From contig NZ_VAUP01000028.1 of assembly GCF_005871085.1 (NCBI RefSeq), forward strand, positions 372,001 to 436,000: a stretch of DNA of 64,000 nt, read 5' to 3'. Source of the stretch: Xanthobacter autotrophicus (lineage in GTDB: Bacteria > Pseudomonadota > Alphaproteobacteria > Rhizobiales > Xanthobacteraceae). Under the pieces are notes generated by a model. The model was not told the DNA's origin. It ran no database searches and worked only from the letters and a program-made list of their open reading frames with translations. Positions 47,853 through 53,647 of the stretch are shown in pieces. The first letter of the stretch is position 1. Each line of letters opens with the position of its first letter. The translations under genes and the position numbers were made by a program.

Positions 47853-47929
47853 GGGGGTGTAGCTCAGTTGGTTAGAGCGCCGGCCTGTCACGCCGGAGGT
47901 CGCGGGTTCGAGCCCCGTCACTCCCGCCA
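47853..47929 (+). tRNA. tRNA-Asp (anticodon GUC), probable integration target
   Basis: 77 bases with encoded CCA. Acceptor GGGGGTG pairs with CACTCCC. The anticodon stem CCGGC/GCCGG encloses CTGTCAC (anticodon GTC), and the T arm has GGTTCGAGCCC. The gene is intact. Its 3' half is copied near 53.6 kb, which marks it as an integration site. Confidence 0.97.
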
Positions 47930-47931
47930 AT
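47880..47931 (+). repeat. Putative attL: 3' half of tRNA-Asp
   Basis: From the first base of the anticodon stem (CCGGCCTGTCACGCCGG) to CGCCAAT just past CCA, 52 bases. The same stretch recurs at 53596-53647 with four substitutions. Confidence 0.7.
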
Positions 47932-47973
47932 CATCCCAATATCTTGAGACGGTTTCCTGGCAGGCTGTGATAC

Positions 47974-48201
47974 TTATCCAGCCGGTGCAGTGACGCATTT
48001 CTCACCCTTTTGTTCCCTGATCTTCGCGCACCCGGCCCCGCGCGCCTCGTCCACCTGCCGCACCGTTGCGACGAGGACGGGGGTGTAGACCTTCTGCAGG
48101 CGGGTCGAAGCCGACAGGGCGTTCGCCATCTTCGTCGACACGGATTCCGCCCTGGCGCCGCCAGCGACGGCCTCCCGCACCGCGGCAAAATCCTTTCCCA
48201 A
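47974..48201 (-). CDS. Possible small or degraded protein of unknown function
   Basis: 75 codons, MGKDFAAVREAVAGG at the start and ending EKCVTAPAG. It has an alpha-helical, Ala-rich look. The adjacent frame upstream (to about 48540, with SYFELGCAWTGRAAAATVSR) also looks protein-like, suggesting one longer secreted protein broken by a frameshift. No family recognised. It lies next to attL of the putative island. Confidence 0.25.
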   Translation of the reverse strand: MGKDFAAVREAVAGGARAESVSTKMANALSASTRLQKVYTPVLVATVRQVDEARGAGCAKIREQKGEKCVTAPAG

Positions 48202-48731
48202 CCTGTCCTTGGTATCGGGGCGCGGGAGCCCCGCCCGCCCTTGTCCGTGGGCAGCACATGGCGCGTCCGAACGATCGGAGCCGCCTTATGGATCTCAAGG
48301 CCCCGCCCGCCGAGACAGGTATCCAAAATCGCTTCAGACCATCTGCTGACGGTCGCGGCGGCCGCGCGGCCGGTCCAAGCGCAGCCCAGCTCAAAATAGC
48401 TGCCAGAGGCGTCCGCCAGCCTCTGGGAGGGGGTGAGGCTGCGCGCATCGATCGGAGAGAGTTGGGAACCCCAGATGGCGGCCATGCAGGCGGCAAGGCC
48501 ACGATAGCCCATCCGCAACGACATCCGGGCGCAGCAGGGGACTGTGGAGCGGGAAACGGCGGAACTGCTCAAGCAGGTGTCCACCCGGCTGGAGCCGTTG
48601 AGGGGAGGCGCCGCGCCGTCCACTTCGTCGGGGTGTTAGGGGAGGGGATGGTGGAATACGCCACTAACGCACGCCCCCAGCAGCGTCGCTCAACGTCCAG
48701 TACGACCCAAAACAGACCCTGGTTTGAAGCC
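48202..48731. other. Degraded or non-coding island segment
   Basis: About 530 bases with overlapping open frames on both strands, none with a good ribosome site. On the minus strand there may be the 5' part of a broken gene (see 47974-48201). Confidence 0.3.
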
Positions 48732-49358
48732 CTAATGCGCCGGCCCGAAGGCTCGGACCAGTGTCGCCGGCGCACCCGTGACCGCAACACCCTTCACTCG
48801 GTCGGCGGCACTGACGAGGAGGTCGCGTGTTGCCGCTGTCCGGTTGGGCTCGCCGTCGATAGCGATGAGCCCGAGGTCGAGCGCCCTCTTGGCGGCCATG
48901 GTGCCATCAAGCACTGCGGCAAGAATGGCTTCGCTCGTGACGATGACCACATCACCGGGAGAAGCTCCCGGTGCATGTACCTGAAGTGCGTAGCCCTGCG
49001 GCTCCGGACTGAATCTCGCCCAAAGCTTCGAATCGATGAACAGAAGCGAGATGGCTGGGGCATCGCCGTCAGCGATACTCGCCGCGGCGAACAACCTGTG
49101 GAAGGCGCTAATGCGGCCGACCGCGCGCCAATAGCCTGACGAGCCGGGAACGATCGGGGCAACCGCCGTTTTATCGACGATGCCCGCCGCAACGGCATCG
49201 CTGATCGCAAAGGCCACCGCGATGGACCTGGGATGCTCGGCGCTGAAGCCGTCACCCAGGATGCCGTCGAAGCCGCAGGCGATGGACGGCGACGTCGCCA
49301 TTCCCGCAGTCAGGAGAAGCAGCGCCGTCGCCGTTATGCGGTGAAGAATCGAGCGCAT
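48732..49358 (-). CDS. Secreted protein of unknown function behind the alkylsulfatase gene
   Basis: 208 aa. Signal peptide MRSILHRITATALLLLTAGM up to SIACGF. The mature part starts CGFDGILGDGFSAEHPRSIA and ends with a helical region around SEAILAAVLDGTMAAKRALD. I do not recognise the family. It starts 23 bases after the alkylsulfatase stop on the same strand, so the two form an operon; it may help in surfactant or sulfate-ester use, which is inference. It has a single Cys after the signal peptide (IACGF), but no proper lipobox. Confidence 0.65.
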   Translation of the reverse strand: MRSILHRITATALLLLTAGMATSPSIACGFDGILGDGFSAEHPRSIAVAFAISDAVAAGIVDKTAVAPIVPGSSGYWRAVGRISAFHRLFAAASIADGDAPAISLLFIDSKLWARFSPEPQGYALQVHAPGASPGDVVIVTSEAILAAVLDGTMAAKRALDLGLIAIDGEPNRTAATRDLLVSAADRVKGVAVTGAPATLVRAFGPAH

Positions 49359-49381
49359 GTCCGGGTTTCGCCTTCTGCATG

Positions 49382-51956: not shown

Positions 51957-53396
51957 ATGCTTTCCAAGCGTCATTTCCTGAAGATCCTCGCCGCCGGCGG
52001 GCTGTCCGCGCCGGCCCTCGTTCCCGGCCTGTCGTGGGCGGCGTCGCCCCCCGATCGCCCCGGCTTCTTCAAGGCGAAGGACATCGCCGAGGCCGCCTTC
52101 ATCTACGGCCTGCCCATGGTGATGAACTATGGGGTGATGTACGAATACGTGGTCGACCGGAACTCGGGCCAGTTCAAGGCCCCGTTCAACGAGATCTACA
52201 ACGAAGCCCGCGTCTTCACCTATCAGGACACCTCGGTTCCCACCCCCAACAGCGACACGCCCTATTCGCTGGCCTGGCTGGACCTGCGGGCCGAGCCGGT
52301 GGTCATCTCTGTACCGGCGGTGGATCCCAAGCGCTATTATTCGGTCCAGCTCGTGGACGGGAATACCTTCAACTACGGCTATATCGGCAGCCGCTCCACC
52401 GGCAACGACGCCGGCGACTTCCTGGTGGTCGGGCCGCGCTGGACCGGCGAGACGCCGCCCGGCATCCGCAAGGTCTTCCGTGCCACCACCGATTTCGCCC
52501 TGACCATCTTCCGCACCCAATTGTTCGATGCCGCCGACATCGACAACGTGAAGAAGGTGCAGGCGGGCTACCAGTTGCGGCCGCTCTCCACCTTCCTCGG
52601 CAAGGCGGCGCCGCCGGCCGCGCCGGTGCCGGACTTCCCCAAGTTCACCAAGGACCTCGCGCGCACGGAATTCTTCGAGTTCCTCGATTTCGCGCTGCAG
52701 TTCGCCCCGGCCCTGCCGGAAGAGCGCGAGATCCGCGCGCAACTGGCCACCATCGGCGTGGGGCCCGGCAAGAGCTTCGATTTCAAGACGCTCTCGCTGG
52801 AAGACAAGGCCGAGGTGCTGCTGGGCCTCAAGGAGGGCCAGCGCAAGGTGACCGAGGCGGTGGCGGCCTTCGGCACGAATTTCAACGGCTGGCGGGTCGG
52901 CTCCATCGCCGGCGATGCCGACTTCTTCAAGCAGGACTGGCTGCTGCGGGCGGTGGGGGCCCAGGCCGGCATCTATGGCAATGACGCCGTGGAGGCCACC
53001 TACCCGATGACCCGCCTGGACGCCGACGGCCAGACCCTCGACGGCTCCAAGCACAATTACACCCTGACCTTCCCGGCCGACGGCCTGCCGCCGGTCAACG
53101 CTTTCTGGTCGGTGACCATGTACGACGGCGTGAACCAGCTGCTCATCAAGAACCCGATCGACCGCTACCTCGTCAACTCGCCGATGTTGCCCAACCTCAA
53201 GCGCAACGCCGACGGGTCGATCACCCTCTACATCCAGAACAAGTCCCCTGGTCCGGACAAGGAAAGCAACTGGCTGCCCGCGCCGGACGGCCCGATCTAC
53301 CTTGTGATGCGACTCTATTGGCCCAAGGAAGCTCCCCCCTCCATCCTCCCGGCCGGGAAGGGCACCTGGCAACCGCCGGGCATCCGGAAGGCCTGA
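51957..53396 (+). CDS. DUF1254/DUF1214 domain secreted protein
   Basis: 479 aa. The signal region MLSKRHFLKILAAGGLSAPA resembles a Tat leader (KRHFLK with a single Arg) or a Sec signal. The DUF1254 domain (about residues 40-180) has AAFIYGLPMVMNYGVMYEY, TPNSDTPYSLAWLDLRAEP and YYSVQLVDGNTFNYGYIGSR. The DUF1214 domain (about 340-470) has AFWSVTMYDG and YLVNSPMLPNLKRNADGSIT with LYIQNKSPG. Function of the family is not known. AGAGAAGG precedes the ATG. A hairpin at 53443-53470 follows the gene. It is the last gene before the attR-like repeat. Confidence 0.85.
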   Translation: MLSKRHFLKILAAGGLSAPALVPGLSWAASPPDRPGFFKAKDIAEAAFIYGLPMVMNYGVMYEYVVDRNSGQFKAPFNEIYNEARVFTYQDTSVPTPNSDTPYSLAWLDLRAEPVVISVPAVDPKRYYSVQLVDGNTFNYGYIGSRSTGNDAGDFLVVGPRWTGETPPGIRKVFRATTDFALTIFRTQLFDAADIDNVKKVQAGYQLRPLSTFLGKAAPPAAPVPDFPKFTKDLARTEFFEFLDFALQFAPALPEEREIRAQLATIGVGPGKSFDFKTLSLEDKAEVLLGLKEGQRKVTEAVAAFGTNFNGWRVGSIAGDADFFKQDWLLRAVGAQAGIYGNDAVEATYPMTRLDADGQTLDGSKHNYTLTFPADGLPPVNAFWSVTMYDGVNQLLIKNPIDRYLVNSPMLPNLKRNADGSITLYIQNKSPGPDKESNWLPAPDGPIYLVMRLYWPKEAPPSILPAGKGTWQPPGIRKA

Positions 53397-53442
53397 TTCA
53401 GAGGCAAGCGACTCGCGGCGGCCGAGTGGTTCCGGCCCCGTG

Positions 53443-53470
53443 GGCGGGGTGGTGTGTCGCCACCCCTGCC
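53443..53470 (+). terminator. Hairpin after the DUF1254 gene
   Basis: GGGGTGG / CCACCCC (53446-53452 and 53460-53466) with loop TGTGTCG; flanking GGC/GCC extend it past one bulge. No T-run. Confidence 0.45.
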
Positions 53471-53518
53471 ATGGGAGCGCACCGTCCCGGCCGAGAGATC
53501 TTCCGGCCGGTGCGCATC

Positions 53519-53570
53519 TGTGACACTTTTGGCAATTAAGGTACGGCTTGGCCTGCCAACAAGTGTCACA
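53519..53570. repeat. Long inverted repeat next to the right end of the island
   Basis: TGTGACACTTTTGGCA (53519-53534) and TGCCAACAAGTGTCACA (53554-53570) are complementary over 16 pairs with one extra base, separated by 19 bases. It lies 25 bases before the tRNA-Asp fragment. It could be recombinase arm sites, a relic insertion-sequence end pair, or an RNA hairpin. Confidence 0.6.
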
Positions 53571-53595
53571 ACGCCTTATGAATGCTCATCATCAT

Positions 53596-53647
53596 CCGGC
53601 CTGTCACGCCGGAGGTCGCGGGCTCGACCCCCATCGCTCCCGCCAAT
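53596..53647 (+). repeat. Putative attR: tRNA-Asp 3' fragment copy
   Basis: 52 bases identical at 48 positions to 47880-47931, including the first 27 without mismatch. The mismatches would disturb the T arm and acceptor stem, so this is not a working tRNA. It lacks the 5' half of the tRNA. Confidence 0.7.

Follow-up and report, generated by a model that had tools for sequence, protein, structure and literature searches.

A probable remnant of a phage-like element integrated at tRNA-Asp, with a dead integrase and a probably foreign alkylsulfatase gene pair, in Xanthobacter autotrophicus

The window analysed here is a 64,000-nucleotide stretch of Xanthobacter autotrophicus (positions 372001-436000 of contig C23, which is 491,724 bp long, in the 5.01-Mb genome G000), and it contains a small island next to a tRNA-Asp gene. 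This island is very probably the decayed remnant of a temperate phage or phage-like element that integrated into tRNA-Asp, that now has a dead integrase and that holds an alkylsulfatase gene and its partner, both probably of foreign origin. An original prediction, made from the letters alone, had proposed site-specific integration into tRNA-Asp followed by loss of the integrase. The first part is supported by empty sites in relatives, by the integrase family, by break points shared with other genomes and by repeats in the arms of the attachment (att) sites; the second part does not hold, the integrase having decayed in place rather than disappeared. The features on which this reading is built are as follows (~ marks approximate limits).

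47853-47929, + strand: intact tRNA-Asp(GTC) gene, forming the left att core from 47880 on
47880-47931, + strand: putative attL, left att core, with its break point (tRNA base 27-30) as in the fragments of genomes G012, G145, G101, G022, G081 and G148
47967-47975, + strand: predicted arm site 1, decayed (GTGACACTT with one mismatch)
47990-47998, + strand: predicted arm site 2, decayed (GTGACACTT class, two mismatches), 23 bp past site 1
~48019-48509, - strand: tyrosine integrase relic, corresponding to about residues 204-390 of the G012 integrase, in two frames and with an internal deletion (tblastn, alignment)
~48505-48510: putative deletion junction with the integrase relic
48505-48617, + strand (provisional): fragment like the end of the small open frame that ends the second phage-gene set of G012 (83% over 111 bp)
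53520-53528, + strand: predicted right arm site, exact GTGACACTT
53561-53569, - strand: predicted right arm site, exact and inverted, 41 bp from its partner
53596-53647, + strand: putative attR, right att core, corresponding to the probably displaced 3' half of tRNA-Asp (48/52 identity)

The tRNA-Asp repeat and its empty counterparts

The two ends of the island are marked by a direct repeat. Positions 47880-47931 recur at 53596-53647 with 48 of 52 bases identical (92%), the initial 27 exactly, as the original prediction had stated; the second copy has an E value of 2.6e-15 against the whole genome. At that copy the alignment covers tRNA bases 28-79 only, the tRNA search calls no gene and the 5' half of the tRNA is indeed absent ahead of it. 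The repeat comparison and the whole-genome search agree on two cores only in the window, and an Rfam scan of 46-56 kb returned two tRNAs together with a single match far under the gathering score. The arrangement is that of a tRNA-gene genomic island, with an intact tRNA gene, a 3' fragment in the same orientation downstream and an empty site in relatives.

Empty sites, expected to run from tRNA-Asp to a gene for an SGNH hydrolase, were looked for by searching 40 relatives, 13 of them congeners, with the sequence upstream of tRNA-Asp and with the SGNH hydrolase region. They were found as predicted: in eight of the 13 congeners (G002, G004, G006, G007, G008, G010, G011 and G013) the SGNH match begins on the same contig, 40 to 674 bases past the end of tRNA-Asp. 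When the flanks of the window were joined by script, they aligned without a break to G002 (1545 bp, 80.9%) and G006 (1577 bp, 80.4%); the alignment of the unjoined window to both genomes stops at the tRNA. The remaining congeners differ, with 2.0 kb containing one 547-aa open reading frame (ORF) between tRNA-Asp and the SGNH match in G003, 129 kb in G012, an SGNH match sited away from tRNA-Asp in G001 and G009, and a tRNA-Asp close to a contig end in G005, where the SGNH match is on a different contig. Ordinary chromosomal genes of the locus are ruled out as an explanation of the island, nothing comparable lying between tRNA-Asp and the SGNH gene in these eight genomes. The SGNH gene and an ORF of 547 to 584 aa keep company in three congeners, at L084 (G009) and L085 (G001) away from tRNA-Asp and at L072 (G003) adjoining it.

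The integrase relic, its family and the link to phage genes

Just behind the tRNA gene, where the original prediction had seen no integrase, lies a tyrosine integrase relic on the minus strand, interrupted by a frameshift. Its point of comparison is the congener G012, in which an open integrase ORF of 399 aa ends 58 nucleotides behind tRNA-Asp and is directed towards it. In a tblastn search of the window this protein matched two adjoining pieces in different frames (48019-48548, joint E value 6e-38), which are its sole matches in G000 at an E value of 1; the upper end of the relic at 48509 was judged by eye from the alignment, tblastn extending to 48548. The relic is therefore identified by its relation to the G012 integrase and by its position beside tRNA-Asp. 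It retains the C-terminal tyrosine and the SPxDxR arginine, has W in place of the AKTG lysine, and is missing the region that holds the second arginine box. The relic thus lacks part of the catalytic set of arginines, lysine and tyrosine, and the integrase, although present, is dead as judged from its residues.

The G012 protein itself matches an integrase family of PHROGs (E value 7.2e-8), has no match in Pfam or NCBIfam at 1e-3 and nothing in PDB at an E value of 0.1; its relative in G022 has a match to Pfam Phage_integrase just under the cut-off. When 198 genomes of the family were searched with it (cut-off 1e-10), 13 matched, including G000 and G012, and 13 integrase loci were located in the 12 genomes other than G000. 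A full tRNA-Asp abuts the 3' end of the integrase in 11 of these 13 loci; at the locus on contig C77 of G157 no tRNA-Asp was found in the stretch available beside the integrase. Fragments of tRNA-Asp running from base 27-30 to base 76-77 share a contig with the full gene in six of the 12 integrase-bearing genomes, at distances of 129 kb (G012), 57 kb (G145), 50 kb (G148), 23 kb (G081), 16.3 kb (G101) and 15.6 kb (G022), and the fragment of the window, which begins at base 28, has the same break point. In G195 (bases 28-77) and G157 (bases 18-77, 92%) a fragment occurs on a separate contig, and in G182 there is a mere 34-base piece. A draw of 397 genomes at the level of the order (cut-off 1e-30) gave 13 matches, one of them already known; the 12 new loci comprise nine beside tRNA-Asp, one beside tRNA-Glu and two beside neither within the available stretch. 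Together with 62 loci from viral contigs they make up 74 later loci, 35 of which have a tRNA-Asp-like core at most 450 bp from the integrase end. Two of these cores (L225 and L247) match at 77% over bases 7-67 only and may belong to another tRNA.

Clear similarity to the integrase stops, by eye, at ~48509, and ~48505-48617 matches positions 4133127-4133237 of G012 (83%). In G012 the small open frame concerned follows an endolysin-matching ORF at a distance of ~1.2 kb, and the ORF picker favoured a frame on the opposite strand there. In the window, DNA that lay beyond the phage genes thus seems, from this alignment, to have been brought up against the integrase end of the element. The tblastx comparison was too noisy to be used except where blastn or tblastn agreed. 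Ten ORFs were scanned against PHROGs, and each of them matches a phage family. Among the nine taken from the G012 island, two match terminase, two portal and one each integrase, a RecT-like protein, tape measure, tail fibre J and endolysin; the tenth, from G022, matches terminase. The relic abuts a fragment that is also found at the end of the prophage genes of G012, which makes a temperate phage, integrated as a prophage, the probable nature of the element.

Repeats in the arms of the attachment sites

The cores are flanked by short repeats that resemble arm sites, to which the integrase would have bound. Within the left arms, a direct repeat occurs at exactly 23 bp, with 10 or 11 matches in 11 for 11 of 13 arms; that of G051 fails this test. 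Right arms show an inverted pair 41-42 bp apart (at most two mismatches) in six of eight cases, the exceptions being G101, which has a single site, and G195, which is cut by a contig end. The motif varies by lineage, yet it is constant inside each pair (left arms L173-L185 and L201-L275) and also matches the inverted pair of the opposite arm where that is seen; its lineage variants, which change in step among copies, are GTGACACTT, GTTCCAACTT, GTTCCGACTT and GTTTCAACTT. Both arms of the window carry one motif class. Across the whole window GTGACACTT has 43 occurrences with at most two mismatches. TGACACTT occurs five times in the 133-kb G012 region, every copy ~75 bp or less from a core, and three times in the window, two of these copies being within the right arm.

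The later loci provided 35 further arms, of which 26 were kept after seven shorter than 85 bases and two redundant ones had been dropped. A spacing of 23 bp is the best in 19 of the 26 (ties allowed; 17 under a strict count), whereas 40 shuffled sets average 1.4 and never exceed 6, and 16 of the 26 have at least 9 of 11 matches at 23 bp, compared with a shuffled mean of 0.05. These arms are not fully independent because some are still related to each other.

Proposed history, cargo and alternatives

These data are consistent with the following course of integration and decay. The attachment site (attP) of a temperate phage, or of an element resembling one, that encoded a tyrosine integrase would have recombined with the part of tRNA-Asp that extends from the anticodon to the 3' end. 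Because attP carried its own copy of this part, the tRNA gene would have been rebuilt at the left end from the attP copy and the old 3' half displaced to the right, to 53596-53647. A later deletion, with its junction at ~48505-48510, may have brought the integrase gene together with a gene that lay across the phage DNA from it, and the integrase would have been inactivated by a frameshift, substitutions and the loss of an internal stretch; with the integrase killed, the remnant would stay in place without outside help. Next to the right arm, the DUF1254 gene would have been part of the element, and the alkylsulfatase pair would have arrived from outside the genus, either as cargo or by a later insertion.

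Several observations weigh against this history. No recognisable phage structural gene was found in the window, and the phage link consists of a single 111-bp fragment together with G012. The left 23-bp repeat of the window scores 7 matches of 11, a value equalled by 47 of 300 shuffles, and is therefore not significant alone. The G148 integrase adjoins not the full tRNA-Asp but the 3' fragment of a 50-kb island (L187:1-1364; G148:C1:50185-50259), and three integrase-bearing genomes (G051, G100 and G170) show no tRNA-Asp fragment. The integrase relative at L268 adjoins tRNA-Glu(CTC), possibly through a switch of target. Finally, in 39 of the 74 later loci a tRNA-Asp core is missing within 450 bp; just 11 of these had fewer than 100 bases beyond the integrase, and the wider integrase family therefore probably uses other sites too, the other 28 suggesting either different sites or a more distant core.

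The following genes lie between the two ends.

48732-49358, - strand: predicted secreted protein of 208 aa that accompanies the alkylsulfatase (unmatched in Pfam and NCBIfam at 1e-3)
49382-51361, - strand: SdsA-type alkylsulfatase (Pfam, PDB relatives), present in one of 14 genus genomes
51957-53396, + strand: DUF1254/DUF1214 protein (Pfam)

The assignments of the original prediction for the alkylsulfatase and the DUF1254 protein were borne out by Pfam and, for the former, by PDB relatives. The alkylsulfatase has the metallo-beta-lactamase, dimerisation and C-terminal domains of an SdsA-type enzyme (Lactamase_B, Alkyl_sulf_dimr and Alkyl_sulf_C) and is related over nearly its full length to PSdsA (4nur, E value 1.4e-222) and SdsA1 (2cfu, E value 2.6e-206); its product is predicted to split detergent-like sulfate esters. 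Among the 14 genus genomes it is confined to G000, and its best named relatives, in a comparison from which the window's own genome was perhaps excluded, are from Bosea and Methylocystis (75-77%). It forms a recurrent pair with the 208-aa protein, a homolog of which is found in 23 of 80 alkylsulfatase loci (L093-L172, kept from 117 relatives), 22 times directly behind the alkylsulfatase and once (L166) before it.

GC content at third codon positions (GC3) had been described as lower in parts of the island. This is true of the alkylsulfatase (0.80) and of its 208-aa neighbour (0.74), compared with 0.878 +/- 0.030 in a set of 31 further ORFs from the window, whose selection had partly favoured high GC3, and not of the DUF1254 gene (0.91). 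Codon adaptation, proposed as a further check, divides the island likewise, with 0.571 and 0.413 for the pair, 0.761 for DUF1254 and a mean of 0.692 for the same 31 ORFs; a low value alone is no proof of foreign origin, since the SGNH gene, which is native, has a low value too (0.610). The DUF1254 end has a clear counterpart, positions 51818-53595 being 91% identical to the G012 DNA that terminates at the right core of that genome. Homologs of the DUF1254 gene with 84-95% DNA identity exist elsewhere in G006 (L080), G002 (L081), G001 (L082) and G003 (L083), and the sequence read around them contains no tRNA.

Whether the alkylsulfatase pair came as phage cargo or was inserted later into the remnant is nearly balanced, the later insertion being slightly the less probable. 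The pair is missing from the related G012 island and the alkylsulfatase from the 13 other genus genomes, its codon adaptation is strongly unlike that of DUF1254, and none of its relatives in viral contigs was confirmed, all of which speaks for a later insertion; against it, the pair lies inside the limits of the element, and no insertion sequence or other repeat was seen around it in the repeat comparison of the window. The alkylsulfatase is a weak candidate for an established phage cargo: six of 50,697 phage records matched it, all below 60%; one of the six is a bacterial contig, in the remaining five the match lies at most 1.1 kb from a record end, and the two stretches of viral contigs that fit a pattern were not confirmed. 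Matching plasmid records number 160.

It is rather unlikely that the left and right ends stem from two tandem elements of the integrase family, of which a deletion left a hybrid. The right core of G012 is followed by a 108-bp left-end relic that resembles the left arm of the window (L067:18525-18632; G012:C1:4151524-4151631; 85% over 158 bp, 50 of which are core), and elements of this family have therefore stacked at the tRNA-Asp site; two contigs of G157 likewise hold a pair of integrase pieces and a fragment. The presence in the window of two cores only, with one motif class in both arms, argues for a single element. Even less probable, and improbable on any count, is that the remnant is a cross-mobilizable mini-element which the integrase of a related incoming phage could excise, a reading suggested by the identity of the first 27 bases of the cores, the exact right arm and the partly kept left arm; if it were true, the alkylsulfatase cargo could travel with helper phages. 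The main alternative of the original prediction, that a further tRNA-Asp gene decayed into the second copy, has a tRNA-like stretch with four changes in its favour and is rejected almost with certainty, given the alignment limited to bases 28-79, the same fragment start in six integrase-bearing genomes, the 91% identity of the upstream DNA to that ahead of the G012 fragment and the congeners without a second tRNA-Asp gene at this place.

As the remnant of an integrated phage-like element, the island is a well-documented further example of a well-known kind of event. Fragments of tRNA genes left by mobile elements are known (PMC9897764), and the order of a tRNA gene, an island and a same-orientation 3' fragment is that of the islands described in Islander (PMC4383910), more precisely of the class with an anticodon-side crossover, to which a table in that source assigns 2083 of 3919 islands. 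Unlike those islands, that of the window has no intact integrase ORF, only a frameshifted relic, and would therefore be rejected by the integrase filter set out there. With the tRNA-Asp prophages of G012 and of other genera it shares the core, a related integrase, the arm motif and the DUF1254 right end, but it has no phage body and a different cargo. The alkylsulfatase, although homologous to SdsA1 and PSdsA, differs from these in being a predicted enzyme that lies in a remnant island beside a 208-aa protein outside known families. The ends alone can thus suffice to trace a small island that lacks a functional integrase back to a dead phage-like element. As a by-product, a set of attachment sites was obtained with matched arm repeats in several motif classes, a fixed 23-bp spacing and each site beside its own integrase, which may serve to study how integrases recognise arm sites. 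The sole phage record matched by the G012 integrase is that of the Microcystis phage vB_MweS-yong2, a distant relative (36.6% over 96%). The G012 island also contains a tRNA-Trp gene (L088:4776-4850).

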